From assembly GCA_902729315.2 (NCBI GenBank), contig LR746264.1, forward strand, positions 6,782,878 to 6,846,877: a stretch of DNA of 64,000 nucleotides, given 5' to 3'. Of the stretch, positions 48,595 through 62,034 are shown piece by piece. Every line of letters begins with the position of its first letter. The stretch's first letter is position 1. This DNA comes from Spirodela intermedia. Lineage: Eukaryota > Streptophyta > Magnoliopsida > Alismatales > Araceae. A model generated the notes under the pieces. That model did not search any database, was not told where the DNA came from, and saw only the letters and a program-made list of their open reading frames with translations. The position numbers were made by a program, and so were the translations under genes.

Positions 48595-51047
48595 CTACAG
48601 CCTACTCTTCCTCACCGGACCCATCTCCTTGGCCTTCTCCCTCAACAGGTTCTTCTTGATCTTCCCAGTCGCGGTCTTGGGGAGCGGCCCGAACACAACG
48701 GACTTGGGAACCCAGTAGCCGGGGAGTTTCTCACGGCAGAAGTTGAGGATGTCCTCGGCCAGCGCCTGCTCGTTGCTCGGGTCCACCTTTCCCTTGGGAG
48801 TGACAAAGGCGCAGGGCGACTCCCCCCACTGCTCGTCTTCGCGAGCCACCACCGAGACCTCCAGCACCCCGGGGTGCCTGTACATCGCGCTCTCCACCTC
48901 CAAGCTGCTGATGTTCTCCCCGCCGGAGATGATGATGTCCTTGGCGCGGTCCTTCACCTCGATGTACCCGTCCGGATGCTTCACCGCCAGGTCGCCGGAA
49001 TGATACCAGCCGCCGGCGAACGACTCGTTGTTAGCTTCCGGGTTCTTCAGGTACCCCTTCATGACGGTGTTTCCCCGCAACACTATCTCCCCCAGCGTAC
49101 TGCCGTCGGCGGGGACGGGGGCCATCGTTTTCATGTCGACGACGTCGAGGCCTTCCAAGCCGATGTAGCGAACGCCTTGCCGGGCGTGCAGGCGCGCGCG
49201 AGCGTCCGCCGGCAGCAGATCCCACTCGGGCTTCCACGCACATACTGTAGACGGCCCGTACGTCTCAGAGAGGCCGTAGGTGTGGGTGACCCTGAAACCG
49301 AGCGAGGACATGGCGGCGAGCACCGAAGCTGGAGGAGCTGCCCCAGCGGTCATGACGTTGACGGTGCGCGGAAGGGGGAGGATGACCTCTCCGGGGGCTG
49401 CGTTGATGAGAGTGTTGAGAACGACAGGGGCTGCGCAGAAGTGAGTCACGCCGAGGTTGGCTATGGCCGAGTAGACAGCCCGAGCCGATACCTGCAGAGG
49501 CACCACCATCTGATAAAAACCCTAATCGTCACATTGCCCATCTTGGACAAGCAAGCCGATCGGCGACCATCGTACCTGGCGGAGGCATATGTTCGTCCCG
49601 CAGAGGGCGGCCAGGGTCCAAGTGTAGCACCAGCCGTTGCAGTGAAACATGGGGAGAGTCCACAGGTAAATGGCCCCCTCGTTCATTCCCCAGATGAGAG
49701 CTCCGCTGAGGGCCATGATGTAGGCGCCCCTATGGTGCAGCACCACGCCCTTGGGGCTGGACGTCGTCCCGGAGGTGTACCCCAGGGCGATGCTCTGCCA
49801 CTCGTCATCAGGGGGCCTCCATGCGAACTCGGGGTCGCCGGACCGCAGGAACTCCTCGTACTCCATGGCCCCCTTGCTTCGCGCATACTGAAGCGTCCGC
49901 CTGTCGCAGGTCTCGTCGCCGATGACGATCAGGAGAGGGGGCCGGAAGCTGTGCTTTTTCTTGTCTTCCATGATCTTCAACGCGTCCTCCGCCAGAGTGA
50001 AGTACTCCTGGTCGACCATCACCACCTCGGCGACGGAGTGCTCCAGTAGGAAGGCGACTGTTGGAGGGTTTAGCCTGATGTTCACCGTGTTCACCACCGC
50101 TCCCGCCATTGGGACTCCGAAGTGAGCTTCGAAAATAGCGGGGACATTCGGCGCGATTACTGCGACCTGAGAAACCGCAGAGAACAGGTTCTGTTATCTT
50201 GGCTTCCAGCAGCCCTCTCTCTCTCTATCTCTCGACATGATTTTTCATGCTTCGACCCAGATGAAACTATTCTGCGAGCATCAATTTCAGCCGCTTTCCA
50301 ACTGTCCGCTCGATTGCTCCAGAGATGACCGATTGAGGCAGATTCGGGTCCGCATCCAAGGACAAAAGTAAAGGGTGATGTTCGGCTCAGATGTCCCATG
50401 GAATTACAAAAATAAAAAATGCTCCTAAAATATCTTCTCTTTTTTAGCGGGTTGGAGGGTCAAAAAGGCGAGTCGTTTATGGAGCGGTCATCGTTGATGT
50501 CAACGTGGGGGGGAACCAAATGGACAAAAAATAAAGACCAAGAAAATATAGGGTCGAGGAAAACCTCCCTGTTGATAGGTCTGGGAGGGGGAGAGGGGAT
50601 GCCAACAGAGACATGGCAGGGACGGAGGGGGATCCTCTCTGGAGGAATCGCCGGTAGGTTATTGCTCCGTCGATATGGATGCGGGGGGGGGGGGAGAAGG
50701 ATGGACGAAGGAGGAAAATCACAAAAAAAGAAAGAGCCAATGGTGACTTAAATTTCGGGCGAGGAAACGGACTCGGAATGGGGACGGAGAGACGGCGGGC
50801 ATCGAGCGGCGGATAGGAGGCGAGTAGGGAATCTCACCGTGGAACCGGGGCCGATCGAGCGGCTGGAGAGGGCGGAGGCGAGGCGGCGGCAGCGCTCGTA
50901 GGTCTGCCTCCATGTGTACCGGAGGGTGCCGTGGACGATCGACGCCCTCTCCGGATGAACATACGCCGCCCGCTCCAGGAACCACAGCGGCGTCAGCGCC
51001 GTGTAGTTTGCTGCGTTCTTCGGCAGATCGTCAATGTCCCGATCCAT
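48595..51047 (-). CDS. AAE7: Peroxisomal acetate/butyrate-CoA ligase (AAE7/ACN1-type)
   Basis: Adenylate-forming enzyme. Arabidopsis AAE7/ACN1 activates acetate in peroxisomes and feeds it to the glyoxylate cycle. Exons on the minus strand: 51047-50838, 50166-49576, 49491-48595, all phase 0; product 565 residues, close to the 569 of AAE7. The N-terminal DIDDLPKNAANYTALTPLWF is nearly diagnostic. The AMP-binding loop YTSGTTSSPKG is near residue 200, YGLSETYG near 339 and WYHSGD near 429. The protein ends in SRL, a type 1 peroxisomal targeting signal. Exon 1 given here is the copy nearest exon 2 (copy 1); five further intact copies of the same exon lie upstream at 51812-52021, 53631-53840, 54606-54815, 55581-55790 and 56556-56765, and any could be the transcribed first exon. 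With the farthest one the first intron would be about 6.4 kb. Acceptor choice for exon 3 at 49491 restores the family sequence CLRQ-VSARAVY. Confidence 0.95.
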
Positions 51048-51811
51048 TCCAGGCTCCCCCCCGAAAGGCTTACCGAGAGAGAGAGAGAGGGAGAGAGTCT
51101 GCTCAGTATGCTGCTAATAGGAATAGAAGACCACTGCGACCGTCGGCGAGTTATACGGCGCCCCTGAGGCCTCTCAGCGCTTCATTCTCCCAGGTGATGT
51201 GCTTTGGACCGTACGCGTGGCCGATCAAGGCGGATCTTCACCGCGGTCGGAAAGCCCGGTCGCAGCAATCGTCAGTTGGGCACGAAAAAGACACGTGCGC
51301 AATCTATCTCAAGAGTGGAATTACTGATATGCCCTCAAAAATCTGGGCAATCTGCACCGTCCAATGGAGGGCTGAGCTCTCTGAGTGCGTCAAATTGTCA
51401 CAAGCTGACGGAACCAGTGATGGTGTTGAGTTCGTCGTTGACTTTCTTGATTACCAGTTTTTGGATCGACTTTTTCTTCACACAGGGTACTGAATTTCAA
51501 AGCGATGGGTTCCGAAAAGGCTAAAAGGGAAATTACTCAGAAACCCTCGGCAATTGACTTATATTGCTTTCGTACATTTTCCGTAAGTTTGTTAAAAATC
51601 GATTGCATAAAGCGATTTCCAGGGTACTACATCTGACGGTTGTGATCAGTGGATTAAAAATTCACAAAAAAAGAAAGAGCCAATGGTGACTTAAATTTCG
51701 GGCGAGGAAACGGACTCGGAATGGGGACGGAGAGACGGCGGCTGGGCATCCCCGGCGGAACGATCACCACATCGAGCGAATTGCGGATAGGAGGCGAGTA
51801 GGGAATCTCAC

Positions 51812-52021
51812 CGTGGAACCGGGGCCGATCGAGCGGCTGGAGAGGGCGGAGGCGAGGCGGCGGCAGCGCTCGTAGGTCTGCCTCCATGTGTACCGGAGGG
51901 TGCCGTGGACGATCGACGCCCTCTCCGGATGAACATACGCCGCCCGCTCCAGGAACCACAGCGGCGTCAGCGCCGTGTAGTTTGCTGCGTTCTTCGGCAG
52001 ATCGTCAATGTCCCGATCCAT
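51812..52021 (-). CDS. AAE7 alternative first exon, copy 2
   Basis: Intact 70-codon exon with the same ATG, the same sequence and the same GTGAG donor as copy 1. It is in phase 0 with the exon-2 acceptor at 50166, so splicing would give an unchanged protein. Confidence 0.7.
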
Positions 52022-52786
52022 TCCAGGCTCCCCCCCGAAAGGCTTACCGAGAGAGAGAGAGAGGGAGAGAGTCTGCTCAGTATGCTGCTAATAGGAATAG
52101 AAGACCACTGCGACCGTCGGCGAGTTATACGGCGCCCCTGAGGCCTCTCAGCGCTTCATTCTCCCAGGTGATGTGCTTTGGACCGTACGCGTGGCCGATC
52201 AAGGCGGGATCTTCACCGCGGTCGGAAAGCCCGGTCGCAGCAATCGTCAGTTGGGCACGAAAAAGACACGTGCGCAATCTATCTCAAGAGTGGAATTACT
52301 GATATGCCCTCAAAAATCTGGGCAATCTGCACCGTCCAATGGAGGGCTGAGCTCTCTGAGTGCGTCAAATTGTCACAAGCTGACGGAACCAGTGATGGTG
52401 TTGAGTTCGTCGTTGACTTTCTTGATTACCAGTTTTTGGATCGACTTTTTCTTCACACAGGGTACTGAATTTCAAAGCGATGGGTTCCGAAAAGGCTAAA
52501 AGGGAAATTACTCAGAAACCCTCGGCAATTGACTTATATTGCTTTCGTACATTTTCCGTAAGTTTGTTAAAAATCGATTGCATAAAGCGATTTCCAGGGT
52601 ACTACATCTGACGGTTGTGATCAGTGGATTAAAAATTCACAAAAAAAGAAAGAGCCAATGGTGACTTAAATTTCGGGCGAGGAAACGGACTCGGAATGGG
52701 GACGGAGAGACGGCGGCTGGGCATCCCCGGCGGAACGATCACCACATCGAGCGAATTGCGGATAGGAGGCGAGTAGGGAATCTCAC

Positions 52787-52939
52787 CGTGGAACCGGGGC
52801 CGATCGAGCGGCTGGAGAGGGCGGAGGCGAGGCGGCGGCAGCGCTCGTAGGTCTGCCTCCATGTGTACCGGAGGGTGCCGTGGACGATCGACGCCCTCTC
52901 CGGATGAACATACGCCGCCCGCTCCAGGAACCACAACGG
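52787..52939 (-). pseudogene. AAE7 first exon, copy 3, start codon deleted
   Basis: A 131-bp deletion joins CCACAACGG directly to AATAGAAGACC. It removes 74 bp of 5'UTR, the ATG and the first 19 codons but leaves the rest of the exon and its donor. A GG microhomology is present at the junction. No in-frame ATG remains ahead of the exon, so this copy cannot start AAE7 normally. Confidence 0.85.
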
Positions 52940-53630
52940 AATAGAAGACCACTGCGACCGTCGGCGAGTTATACGGCGCCCCTGAGGCCTCTCAGCGCTT
53001 CATTCTCCCAGGTGATGTGCTTTGGACCGTACGCGTGGCCGATCAAGGCGGGATCTTCACCGCGGTCGGAAAGCCCGGTCGCAGCAATCGTCAGTTGGGC
53101 ACGAAAAAGACACGTGCGCAATCTATCTCAAGAGTGGAATTACTGATATGCCCTCAAAAATCTGGGCAATCTGCACCGTCCAATGGAGGGCTGAGCTCTC
53201 TGAGTGCGTCAAATTGTCACAAGCTGACGGAACCAGTGATGGTGTTGAGTTCGTCGTTGACTTTCTTGATTACCAGTTTTTGGATCGACTTTTTCTTCAC
53301 ACAGGGTACTGAATTTCAAAGCGATGGGTTCCGAAAAGGCTAAAAGGGAAATTACTCAGAAACCCTCGGCAATTGACTTATATTGCTTTCGTACATTTTC
53401 CGTAAGTTTGTTAAAAATCGATTGCATAAAGCGATTTCCAGGGTACTACATCTGACGGTTGTGATCAGTGGATTAAAAATTCACAAAAAAAGAAAGAGCC
53501 AATGGTGACTTAAATTTCGGGCGAGGAAACGGACTCGGAATGGGGACGGAGAGACGGCGGCTGGGCATCCCCGGCGGAACGATCACCACATCGAGCGAAT
53601 TGCGGATAGGAGGCGAGTAGGGAATCTCAC

Positions 53631-53840
53631 CGTGGAACCGGGGCCGATCGAGCGGCTGGAGAGGGCGGAGGCGAGGCGGCGGCAGCGCTCGTAGGTCTGC
53701 CTCCATGTGTACCGGAGGGTGCCGTGGACGATCGACGCCCTCTCCGGATGAACATACGCCGCCCGCTCCAGGAACCACAGCGGCGTCAGCGCCGTGTAGT
53801 TTGCTGCGTTCTTCGGCAGATCGTCAATGTCCCGATCCAT
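53631..53840 (-). CDS. AAE7 alternative first exon, copy 4
   Basis: Identical by eye to copy 2, with ATG, 70 codons and a GTGAG donor. Preceded by a full promoter module. Confidence 0.7.
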
Positions 53841-54605
53841 TCCAGGCTCCCCCCCGAAAGGCTTACCGAGAGAGAGAGAGAGGGAGAGAGTCTGCTCAGT
53901 ATGCTGCTAATAGGAATAGAAGACCACTGCGACCGTCGGCGAGTTATACGGCGCCCCTGAGGCCTCTCAGCGCTTCATTCTCCCAGGTGATGTGCTTTGG
54001 ACCGTACGCGTGGCCGATCAAGGCGGGATCTTCACCGCGGTCGGAAAGCCCGGTCGCAGCAATCGTCAGTTGGGCACGAAAAAGACACGTGCGCAATCTA
54101 TCTCAAGAGTGGAATTACTGATATGCCCTCAAAAATCTGGGCAATCTGCACCGTCCAATGGAGGGCTGAGCTCTCTGAGTGCGTCAAATTGTCACAAGCT
54201 GACGGAACCAGTGATGGTGTTGAGTTCGTCGTTGACTTTCTTGATTACCAGTTTTTGGATCGACTTTTTCTTCACACAGGGTACTGAATTTCAAAGCGAT
54301 GGGTTCCGAAAAGGCTAAAAGGGAAATTACTCAGAAACCCTCGGCAATTGACTTATATTGCTTTCGTACATTTTCCGTAAGTTTGTTAAAAATCGATTGC
54401 ATAAAGCGATTTCCAGGGTACTACATCTGACGGTTGTGATCAGTGGATTAAAAATTCACAAAAAAAGAAAGAGCCAATGGTGACTTAAATTTCGGGCGAG
54501 GAAACGGACTCGGAATGGGGACGGAGAGACGGCGGCTGGGCATCCCCGGCGGAACGATCACCACATCGAGCGAATTGCGGATAGGAGGCGAGTAGGGAAT
54601 CTCAC

Positions 54606-54815
54606 CGTGGAACCGGGGCCGATCGAGCGGCTGGAGAGGGCGGAGGCGAGGCGGCGGCAGCGCTCGTAGGTCTGCCTCCATGTGTACCGGAGGGTGCCGT
54701 GGACGATCGACGCCCTCTCCGGATGAACATACGCCGCCCGCTCCAGGAACCACAGCGGCGTCAGCGCCGTGTAGTTTGCTGCGTTCTTCGGCAGATCGTC
54801 AATGTCCCGATCCAT
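54606..54815 (-). CDS. AAE7 alternative first exon, copy 5
   Basis: Identical by eye to copies 2 and 4, with an intact ATG and donor. Confidence 0.7.
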
Positions 54816-55580
54816 TCCAGGCTCCCCCCCGAAAGGCTTACCGAGAGAGAGAGAGAGGGAGAGAGTCTGCTCAGTATGCTGCTAATAGGAATAGAAGACC
54901 ACTGCGACCGTCGGCGAGTTATACGGCGCCCCTGAGGCCTCTCAGCGCTTCATTCTCCCAGGTGATGTGCTTTGGACCGTACGCGTGGCCGATCAAGGCG
55001 GGATCTTCACCGCGGTCGGAAAGCCCGGTCGCAGCAATCGTCAGTTGGGCACGAAAAAGACACGTGCGCAATCTATCTCAAGAGTGGAATTACTGATATG
55101 CCCTCAAAAATCTGGGCAATCTGCACCGTCCAATGGAGGGCTGAGCTCTCTGAGTGCGTCAAATTGTCACAAGCTGACGGAACCAGTGATGGTGTTGAGT
55201 TCGTCGTTGACTTTCTTGATTACCAGTTTTTGGATCGACTTTTTCTTCACACAGGGTACTGAATTTCAAAGCGATGGGTTCCGAAAAGGCTAAAAGGGAA
55301 ATTACTCAGAAACCCTCGGCAATTGACTTATATTGCTTTCGTACATTTTCCGTAAGTTTGTTAAAAATCGATTGCATAAAGCGATTTCCAGGGTACTACA
55401 TCTGACGGTTGTGATCAGTGGATTAAAAATTCACAAAAAAAGAAAGAGCCAATGGTGACTTAAATTTCGGGCGAGGAAACGGACTCGGAATGGGGACGGA
55501 GAGACGGCGGCTGGGCATCCCCGGCGGAACGATCACCACATCGAGCGAATTGCGGATAGGAGGCGAGTAGGGAATCTCAC

Positions 55581-55790
55581 CGTGGAACCGGGGCCGATCG
55601 AGCGGCTGGAGAGGGCGGAGGCGAGGCGGCGGCAGCGCTCGTAGGTCTGCCTCCATGTGTACCGGAGGGTGCCGTGGACGATCGACGCCCTCTCCGGATG
55701 AACATACGCCGCCCGCTCCAGGAACCACAGCGGCGTCAGCGCCGTGTAGTTTGCTGCGTTCTTCGGCAGATCGTCAATGTCCCGATCCAT
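55581..55790 (-). CDS. AAE7 alternative first exon, copy 6
   Basis: Identical by eye to copies 2, 4 and 5, with an intact ATG and donor. Confidence 0.7.
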
Positions 55791-56555
55791 TCCAGGCTCC
55801 CCCCCGAAAGGCTTACCGAGAGAGAGAGAGAGGGAGAGAGTCTGCTCAGTATGCTGCTAATAGGAATAGAAGACCACTGCGACCGTCGGCGAGTTATACG
55901 GCGCCCCTGAGGCCTCTCAGCGCTTCATTCTCCCAGGTGATGTGCTTTGGACCGTACGCGTGGCCGATCAAGGCGGGATCTTCACCGCGGTCGGAAAGCC
56001 CGGTCGCAGCAATCGTCAGTTGGGCACGAAAAAGACACGTGCGCAATCTATCTCAAGAGTGGAATTACTGATATGCCCTCAAAAATCTGGGCAATCTGCA
56101 CCGTCCAATGGAGGGCTGAGCTCTCTGAGTGCGTCAAATTGTCACAAGCTGACGGAACCAGTGATGGTGTTGAGTTCGTCGTTGACTTTCTTGATTACCA
56201 GTTTTTGGATCGACTTTTTCTTCACACAGGGTACTGAATTTCAAAGCGATGGGTTCCGAAAAGGCTAAAAGGGAAATTACTCAGAAACCCTCGGCAATTG
56301 ACTTATATTGCTTTCGTACATTTTCCGTAAGTTTGTTAAAAATCGATTGCATAAAGCGATTTCCAGGGTACTACATCTGACGGTTGTGATCAGTGGATTA
56401 AAAATTCACAAAAAAAGAAAGAGCCAATGGTGACTTAAATTTCGGGCGAGGAAACGGACTCGGAATGGGGACGGAGAGACGGCGGCTGGGCATCCCCGGC
56501 GGAACGATCACCACATCGAGCGAATTGCGGATAGGAGGCGAGTAGGGAATCTCAC

Positions 56556-56765
56556 CGTGGAACCGGGGCCGATCGAGCGGCTGGAGAGGGCGGAGGCGAG
56601 GCGGCGGCAGCGCTCGTAGGTCTGCCTCCATGTGTACCGGAGGGTGCCGTGGACGATCGACGCCCTCTCCGGATGAACATACGCCGCCCGCTCCAGGAAC
56701 CACAACGGCGTCAGTGCCGTGTAGTTTGCTGCGTTCTTCGGCAGATCGTCAATGTCCCGATCCAT
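56556..56765 (-). CDS. AAE7 alternative first exon, copy 7 (distal)
   Basis: Same 70 residues, but with at least two base differences from copies 2 and 4-6 (AACGGCG for AGCGGCG and AGTGCC for AGCGCC). Its upstream half carries many substitutions and small indels, and a pure rather than interrupted GA tract in the 5'UTR. It joins unique DNA at the PADRE gene and is probably the oldest promoter. Confidence 0.7.
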
Positions 56766-57392
56766 TCCAGGCTCCCCCCCGAAAGGCTTACCGAGAGAGA
56801 GAGAGAGAGAGAGAGAGAGTCTGCTCAGTATGCTGCTAATAGGAATAGAAGACCACTGCGACCGTCGGCGAGTTCATAGCGGCGGTATTATACGGCGCCC
56901 CTGAGGCCTTTCAGCGCTTCATTCTCCCAGGTGATGTGCTTTGGACCGTACGCGTGGCCGATCAAGGCGGAATCTTCACCGCGGTCGGAAAGCCCGGTCG
57001 TCAGTTGGGCACGGAAAAGACACGTGCGCGATCTATCTCAAGAGTAGATTTACTGATATGCCCTCATAATCCGGGCAATCTCCACCGTCCAATGGAGGGC
57101 TGAGCTCTCTGAGTGCGTCAAATCGTCACAAGCTGACGGAACCAGTGATGGTGTTGAGTTCGTCGTTGACTTTCTTGATTACCAGTTTTTGGATCGACTT
57201 TTTCTTCACACAGGGTACTGAATTTCAAACCGATGAGTTCCGCACTGATGGAAAAGGCTAAAAGTGAAATTACTCAGAAACCCTCGTCAATTGGCTTATA
57301 TTGCTATCGTACATTTTCCATATGTTTGTAAACACGTGTTAAAAATCGATTGCATAAAGCGATTTCCAGGGTACTACATCTGACGGTTGTGA

Positions 57393-57983
57393 TCAGTGGA
57401 TTAAAAATTCCCAAGACCACGAGAGATCCGATGGACGCGGACATCTCATCGTCGCCGCCTCTGGTTTGACTCTTTTGCACTCGCGAATGGTCTCGAGAAC
57501 GGGCTTCCACCGCCGAGCAGCTCCGATGGGGGGGAACCGGGGTAAGTCAGCCGTGTCTCCCCCACTCCTCCCCTCTTTGCCCTCCTCGCTCGGCCAGTCG
57601 CCGCCGGCCACCACGCCGGGGAAAACCCTGCTGCCGGCGGCGAGCCCCCGCCCATTACCGGGTCTCCTCCGCTTTCCCCCCCGGCGAGCGCTCTCGACGG
57701 CCGCCATTTGGTGCTCCGGCAACCTGGAACCCGCCCTGTCAACAGGGCACAGCAGGTAGACCCCGCCGGCGCGCAGCCGTTCGTCGGCCTTCAAGGCGAC
57801 GGCACGGCGAGTCCTCTTTGCCTCCTTGCCGCAGACGATCATGTGCCCCGGCGCCTCCAGCATCAGCTCCGCCACAGTCGCGAGGAGCTCGTGATGCCGG
57901 AGGTTCCCCTCCCAATCCACCAACTTCGTTATCTCCGATGCGCCGCCGCCCACGATACACGACACGTAGTCTGCAAACTTCAT
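57393..57983 (-). CDS. PADRE/DUF4228 domain protein
   Basis: A single-exon gene of 196 residues. The N-terminal MKFADYVSCIVGG, then TKLVDWEGNLRHHELLATVAELMLEAPGHMIVCG and ALKADERLRAGGVYLLCPV, fit the DUF4228/PADRE pattern of short plant proteins often induced by stress or pathogens. The domain ends near residue 105; the Gly/Arg-rich remainder is unlike anything I recognise. Biochemical function is unknown for the family. TATATA at 58095-58100 is about 112 bp upstream of the ATG. The final codons (EFLIH and stop) lie inside the right-hand end of the AAE7 promoter array, so every array unit also carries a copy of this gene's last 18 bp. Confidence 0.8.
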   Translation of the reverse strand: MKFADYVSCIVGGGASEITKLVDWEGNLRHHELLATVAELMLEAPGHMIVCGKEAKRTRRAVALKADERLRAGGVYLLCPVDRAGSRLPEHQMAAVESARRGGKRRRPGNGRGLAAGSRVFPGVVAGGDWPSEEGKEGRSGGDTADLPRFPPIGAARRWKPVLETIRECKRVKPEAATMRCPRPSDLSWSWEFLIH

Positions 57984-61199: not shown

Positions 61200-62034
61200 A
61201 TGGCCAAGTCGAAGAACCACACGGCGCATAACCAGTCGTTCAAGGCCCATAGAAATGGCATCAAGAAGCCCCGCAGGCACAGAAAAACCTCCACCAAAGG
61301 GGTACGACGTCCATATCATCATCCTTCATCACGTTCTCCCCGACATATGGATATATATTATTCGGCGTTTAATTTTTCGTGATCCGTGTAGTTACGGGCT
61401 TCTTTATGCCGAGTTTTTTCGATCTATGTAGTTACCAATTTCTTCTGCCTTCGTTATGGCGAGTTCTTCGTTACGGGCTTCTTCGGCTGTTTTTTTTCCG
61501 TAATTTCCTCGATTTTATGAGGCTGGTAGGTTAGGTTCCTTCGATCCATGTGGTTTTGTATTTTTCGCTTTGATTTCTGTTTTAAAGTCATCATCTGCGC
61601 TGGAATCTCTTCGGATTTAGTCGGAAATAACATGTGGAGTGTGCGCATCCCGAATCATATCAGATGGACCCAACTTATGCATATATTCTATAGTAATCGA
61701 TAATTTGTGATCCGTATGTCTTTTATGTTCTTCGATCTATTAAGTTACCGATTTCTTCTTCCTGATCTAGAGCTGTTTTCTTCCGTGAATTCCCCGATTT
61801 TTGCGGTGGACAGGTTAATGTGTTTCGAACCACGTGATTTCTATTTTTTTGCTTTGATTTCTGTTTTAAATGCATCATCTGTGCGGGAATCTCTTACCGT
61901 TTCATCGGAAATAACGTGTGCATTGTGTGCATCCCGATTCGTATCAGATGGACCCGAAGTTCCTGAGGAACCAGAGGTACGCCAGGAAGCACAACAAGAA
62001 GAACGGCGAACTAGCGACAGAGGAAGAGGAGTAG
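61200..62034 (+). CDS. RPL29: Ribosomal protein eL29 (60S)
   Basis: Two exons, 61200-61301 and 61948-62034, encode 62 residues: [34 protein letters not shown], then [18 protein letters not shown] and an acidic tail ending TEEEE. It is a small, very basic protein of the large cytosolic ribosomal subunit, and length and sequence match the plant family closely. The intron is 646 bp and contains a diverged duplicate of the exon-2 acceptor region (61664 versus 61948), which could compete in splicing. The strong promoter motifs upstream fit constitutive high expression. Confidence 0.97.
61370..61680 (+). repeat. Duplicated intron segment of RPL29, copy 1 (with decoy exon-2 start)
   Basis: Blocks TTCGATCTATGTAGTTACC, GCTTTGATTTCTGTTTTAAA, TCGGAAATAAC and ATATCAGATGGACCC occur here and again 284 bp downstream. 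The last block is a copy of the real acceptor and first codons of exon 2; the decoy frame reads MDPTYAYIL then stop. Confidence 0.8.
61690..61965 (+). repeat. Duplicated intron segment of RPL29, copy 2 (with genuine exon-2 start)
   Basis: Matches copy 1 block by block (TTCGATCTATTAAGTTACC, GCTTTGATTTCTGTTTTAAA, TCGGAAATAAC, GTATCAGATGGACCC) and ends in the functional exon 2. Confidence 0.8.

Follow-up and report, generated by a model that had tools for sequence, protein, structure and literature searches.

Seven tandem copies of the intergenic region and first exon at a single-copy AAE7 gene of Spirodela intermedia

A 64,000-nucleotide stretch of the Spirodela intermedia genome (assembly GCA_902729315.2, contig LR746264.1, positions 6,782,878 to 6,846,877; called the window here and numbered from its first letter) carries a gene for acyl-activating enzyme 7 (AAE7), the start of which has been multiplied without the gene body. 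Seven head-to-tail units at 57409-50719 on the minus strand each span the intergenic region that separates AAE7 from the upstream PADRE gene, then exon 1 of AAE7 and the first part of its intron 1. The repeat pattern is far beyond chance and the array is most likely a real feature rather than an artefact; the count of seven copies is less firm than it looks. We favor, with moderate confidence, the explanation that the array is mostly a by-product of recombination made in stages, that copy 1, the unit adjoining the gene body, would be the main productive start and that the array would have at most a modest effect on the level of AAE7.

On the minus strand the order is the PADRE gene, the seven units, the single-copy remainder of intron 1 and AAE7 exons 2 and 3. 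The units, from upstream to downstream, and the remaining exons are as follows.

Copy 7 (most upstream unit), 57409-56407, minus strand: 1003 bp; diverged from the core on the left, identical to it on the right; exon 1 at 56765-56556
Copy 6, 56406-55432, minus strand: 975 bp; exon 1 at 55790-55581
Copy 5, 55431-54457, minus strand: 975 bp; exon 1 at 54815-54606
Copy 4, 54456-53482, minus strand: 975 bp; exon 1 at 53840-53631
Copy 3, 53481-52638, minus strand: 844 bp; 131-bp deletion; exon-1 remnant at 52939-52787
Copy 2, 52637-51663, minus strand: 975 bp; exon 1 at 52021-51812
Copy 1 (adjoins the gene body), 51662-50719, minus strand: 944 bp; 31 intron bases missing; exon 1 at 51047-50838
AAE7 exon 2, 50166-49576, minus strand: found once in the genome
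AAE7 exon 3 including the stop codon, 49491-48595, minus strand: found once in the genome; protein ends in KSRL

A first-pass annotation made from the DNA letters had described one unit repeated seven times. The unit coordinates bear out seven direct copies, but the copies are not all equal, in that copies 7, 3 and 1 deviate. In six of the seven (copies 7, 6, 5, 4, 2, and 1) exon 1 is 210 nt long, begins with ATG, encodes the same 70 residues, ends in phase 0 at the donor CACG/GTGAGA and is phase-compatible with the single exon 2, all of which agrees with that annotation. The 131-bp deletion in copy 3 takes most of the 5' untranslated region (5'UTR), the ATG and codons 1-19, leaving codons 20-70. 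A six-frame protein search of the whole genome (136,496,439 bases in 32 contigs, only the best candidates being scored) found seven copies of exon 1, all within the array, and exons 2 and 3 once each.

The AAE7 product read from exon 1 plus exons 2 and 3 has 565 residues, the length of which is spanned by PF00501 (AMP-binding, residues 24-415) and PF13193 (AMP-binding_C, residues 465-544). Among the matches listed, a Wolffia protein annotated as acyl-activating enzyme 7 shows 83% identity along the full length and palm proteins annotated as AAE7 show 81-82%; in some sources close relatives are called 4-coumarate--CoA ligase or CCL3. We take the C-terminal SRL to be a peroxisomal targeting signal type 1 (PTS1)-type or PTS1-like end. 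Both the domains and the names of the relatives point to AAE7/ACN1, an acetate(butyrate)-CoA ligase predicted to be peroxisomal. Searched with the AAE7 protein, the genome gave 28 matches. Beyond the AAE7 exons they comprise four paralogues (53-54% identity), which each have a single exon-1 piece close by, and weaker relatives.

The differences among the copies bear on how the array was made. Copies 2, 4, 5, and 6 are identical to one another. Compared with copy 4, copy 7 has 18 substitutions in 532 positions plus five indel events to the left of the 5'UTR, one substitution in the 75 positions of the 5'UTR, two in the 210 of exon 1 (both synonymous, so that the proteins are identical) and none in the 148 of intron 1. 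Assuming an even spread, finding none of the 21 substitutions in the last 298 columns has p ~0.0004. Copy 1 lacks 31 intron bases in two gaps and differs further by a 1-base deletion and one substitution. Where copies 7 and 1 differ from each other, copies 6, 5, 4, and 2 agree with copy 1 on the left (all comparable events) and with copy 7 on the right. Copy 3 agrees with copy 1 as far as its deletion and with copy 7 from column 715 on, and one exon-1 base is common to copies 3 and 7. Of the 31 listed events, the last is an alignment edge effect and another is a base that only copy 1 lacks; events within the deletion of copy 3 are uninformative for that copy. Diverged end copies, middle copies that are alike and parts common to each end are the pattern by which an array made by unequal crossing-over is recognized. 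The copies would thus have exchanged sequence, and the best reading of that history is an older duplication on which unequal crossing-over within exon 1 later acted.

Two observations weigh against this history. The copy 7-type right side of the middle copies consists of three neighboring differences, perhaps a single event. Moreover, P0121, a protein of a congener (probably S. polyrhiza), represents the long intron form, as its 39-residue match to the core takes in the stretch that copy 1 lacks; the copy 1 loss is therefore derived and may postdate the amplification. With such a young loss, the middle copies need not be hybrids and gene conversion of copy 7 could serve as well, although conversion of copy 7 and the base found in copy 3 would still imply exchange. 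P0121 is found on 13 contigs (the longest of 6,696 bases), which hints that the congener has no array of identical units. A dispersed or transposon-like repeat was also considered and is not supported: beyond the array the unit matched one 49-bp stretch, located in exon 1 of a paralogue, in a genome search that scored the best candidates and skipped very common words.

What the first-pass annotation missed is that each unit also holds the upstream gene's 3' flank, where distal transcripts could terminate prematurely. The features in question, together with a potential cassette exon discussed below, are these.

PADRE (DUF4228) gene, 57983-57393, minus strand: PF14009; 196-residue frame running into the array
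Polyadenylation (poly(A))-like motifs in copy 4, 54373-54354, minus strand: TGTA (54370) and AATATA (54359), in a stretch derived from the PADRE 3' flank
Potential cassette in copy 4, 53903-53631, minus strand: from TTAGCAG/CAT to the exon-1 donor; 273 nt, in frame, without a stop codon

Comparison with the congener protein P0241, likewise probably from S. polyrhiza, places the ancestral PADRE stop codon at 57448-57446, 36 bases outside the array, and the unit therefore contains the PADRE 3' flank. By position, the PADRE poly(A) site should lie within the flank carried by each unit. The sequence AATATAAG is present in all seven units, and TGTA and AATATA, which we take to be poly(A)-type signals, sit about 240 nt past the donor of the preceding unit. 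The last 26 codons of the 57983-57393 frame differ from P0241 and read another frame because a run of A near 57478 is one A longer, through either a real change or a sequencing error. Shortening of PADRE by the array is not supported, as P0241 ends before the array start and the extra A accompanies the longer frame seen in the window. Upstream of PADRE on the same strand lies an exon of an Arf-family GTPase (PF00025, 58605-58922), presumably SAR1-like.

The first-pass annotation had also held that the units have no evident acceptor and that transcripts starting at any copy should be spliced directly to exon 2. Neither statement is supported. Scored with a matrix of low selectivity, an in-frame acceptor-like site in the 5'UTR of the intact copies reaches 3.63 versus 3.36 for the exon-2 acceptor and 3.15 for the other real acceptor; outside the array, 129 of 7301 AG sites score at least 3.63 and 168 of 7301 score as high as the real exon-2 site. 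Given this 5'UTR site, it cannot be concluded that transcripts are spliced directly to exon 2. Exact copies of the cassette that it would open in copy 4 start at 55853, 54878, 52084, and 51110 (copies 6, 5, 2, and 1, respectively); the cassette is absent from copy 3 and 4 nt longer in copy 7, the 5'UTR of which has an extra CTCT. In a middle unit the cassette site is the best acceptor-like site (3.63), and in intron 1 after copy 1 the real exon-2 site is the best of 35 (3.36, the next being 2.15). A public S. intermedia protein, P0122 (88 residues), combines exon 1 with sequence that lies immediately before the next exon 1, using a site with a score of -5.63. The published S. intermedia gene models are described as made by similarity with GeMoMa; P0122 is therefore not transcript evidence, and it is probably an annotation error caused by the array.

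The by-product explanation would start with a duplication that joined intron 1 to the PADRE 3' flank, at a junction where two bases (GA) are shared. This founding step would have given an upstream copy (the ancestor of copy 7) and a gene-proximal copy (the ancestor of copy 1), which then diverged. Later, misaligned copies would have exchanged inside exon 1, multiplying the block between them, and the middle copies would thereby have received a copy 1-type left part and a copy 7-type right part. A second illegitimate junction, at which CC is shared, would have produced the defective copy 3, which shows that a defective copy is tolerated. Copy 1 would have stayed the chief productive start, since beyond its donor no acceptor-like site outscores that of exon 2 itself. 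The distal copies may be transcribed, but their RNA would have to pass the PADRE 3' flank and competing acceptor-like sites in each following unit, and thus a large share should terminate prematurely or take other splice routes. The case against the distal copies would rest on the presence of a real PADRE 3' flank in the unit, not on motif counts.

Several points weigh against this explanation. The poly(A)-like motifs do not set copy 1 apart: the idea that it alone is free of them before exon 2 was rejected when a scan of its own intron found TGTA at 50408 and three AATAAA words with one mismatch. The synonymous nature of the copy 7 exon-1 changes and the six exons with donor and frame fit use of the distal copies, and recent copying explains them too. 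In Arabidopsis introns U1 small nuclear ribonucleoprotein suppresses early cleavage (PMC11489095), and read-through is therefore possible. The splice scores, moreover, share the low selectivity of their matrix.

The count of seven copies has a rival of its own. A three-copy allele composed of copies 7, 3, and 1 already contains all words of the seven-copy array up to a length of 115 bases, and two four-copy alleles tested contain every array word of up to 730 bases. Short reads therefore cannot settle the copy number, and seven rests on the nanopore reads. According to the assembly report (PMC7645714), clone 8410, which we infer to be the source of the window, was assembled with MaSuRCA from super-reads of 151-nt Illumina reads and from nanopore reads of 10-425 kb at 62-fold coverage, the first version of 191.9 Mb shrinking to 136.6 Mb once duplicates stemming from heterozygous regions had been taken out. 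It is conceivable, though somewhat unlikely, that the true allele has three or four copies and that the hybrid assembler circled a graph loop extra times, a reading compatible with the others. The word contents of the shorter alleles and the hybrid assembly with its removed duplicates are in its favor, and extra passes would give exactly identical middle copies, as seen in the four that have not one difference. However, nanopore reads of the reported length can span 6.7 kb, an allele of copies 7 and 1 lacks array words already at 20 bases (the shortest tested) and copies 7, 3, and 1 carry private changes. Hence a plain two-copy allele, or assembler copying of one unit, was rejected: the array has content beyond a single copy or a plain two-copy allele. 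Nor was a comparable array (at least three copies of a unit longer than 500 bp at 95% identity) found in 26 other segments totaling 254 kb (20 loci of 10 kb from contig 1 plus six window pieces, with the low-complexity filter on). Repeats of other kinds were recorded: at locus L017 (2375-6407), minisatellite-like arrays with 96- and 214-bp units at 97-99% identity and an older one at 81-86%; at locus L029 (2501-7419), a 2.4-kb direct duplication of 99.75% identity with inverted pieces nearby; and at 61514-61955 of the window, two direct 158-nt copies of 78% identity.

The other alternatives concern what the copies do. Each intact copy might be a working alternative promoter, with its exon 1 spliced straight to exon 2, which would leave the protein as it is and increase AAE7 output or the diversity of start sites. 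We regard this as unlikely. The six identical phase-0 exons with donors argue for it, as does the public S. intermedia model P0004, probably from clone 7747, which joins one exon 1 to the exon-2 region (it is similarity-based and silent on which copy), and in wheat tandem promoter repeats are associated with high TaALMT1 expression (PMC6480313). Yet the introns from copies 7, 6, 5, 4, and 2 would be 6389 to 1645 nt long, would skip five to one acceptor-like cassette sites and would traverse the PADRE 3' flank of every later unit, and one copy is defective. The CACGTG G-box and GTATAA element that had been offered as the mark of working promoters are not convincing. Outside the array CACGTG occurs in 15% and GTATAA in 26% of 975-bp stretches of the window; as both are common and the unit was then copied, one of each per unit is weak evidence of function. 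That the promoter and first coding exon of this single-copy gene form a copy-number-variable array, through which recombination in a mainly clonal plant adjusts output by way of the number of promoters and leaves the protein constant, seems to us distinctly unlikely.

Alternatively, distal transcripts could include later exon-1 copies through the 5'UTR acceptor, lengthening AAE7 by 91 residues per copy. The score of the site and the open, in-frame 273-nt cassette, exact in five copies, would allow this, but we consider it very unlikely: the matrix is of low selectivity, with 129 of 7301 other AG sites scoring as high, the site lies near the expected transcription start of each copy, no protein so lengthened is among the best 120 of 7999 AAE7 matches (lengths about 311-988 residues) and P0122, a public (similarity-based) model inside the array, uses another site. 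Least probable is a silencing or regulatory repeat of the maize b1 kind, acting in chromatin through small RNA and methylation and not as extra promoters. The b1 repeats are non-coding and far from the gene, which speaks against the parallel; in its favor, specific tandem repeats that make small interfering RNA are reported to be needed for b1 paramutation (PMC3798267).

If the distal copies are used, the locus would offer a natural test of whether a gene yields more when its complete promoter-plus-first-exon module, and not the gene itself, is multiplied; the plant grows fast and is mainly clonal, and copy number could differ between its clones. If they are unused, it is a readable example of a 5' partial duplication that grows by copy exchange and is able to confuse gene annotation. 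Titles and starts of abstracts in the open-licence literature on partial, first-exon or promoter duplication do not describe the arrangement, which is no proof that it is undescribed.

Four known systems invite comparison. Partial tandem duplication of the 5' end of a gene has the same topology, and junction microhomology followed by unequal exchange is its usual route; the AAE7 array differs in its higher copy number and traceable exchange history. The maize b1 array (seven copies of 853 bp) resembles it in having tandem repeats of similar number and size that act on one gene (PMC3798267). The b1 repeats are distal and have no coding exons. For the TaALMT1 promoter repeats of wheat and the miniature inverted-repeat transposable element (MITE) repeats of sorghum SbMATE, the number of repeats in a single gene's promoter region is associated with expression (PMC6480313). 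Those are described as promoter repeats, whereas the AAE7 unit adds the first coding exon, a donor and the upstream gene's 3' flank. Similar in layout are variable-first-exon clusters such as UGT1 and protocadherin, in which tandem first exons with their own upstream regions precede shared exons (PMC3325998, PMC1885805). The AAE7 array has this layout, with several first exons of compatible phase, each with a donor, before one downstream set. In such clusters, however, differing first exons diversify the protein, whereas the intact AAE7 first exons give one and the same 70 residues (six of seven copies, the seventh being truncated) and are nearly identical in DNA, so that the array multiplies a gene start without adding variety.

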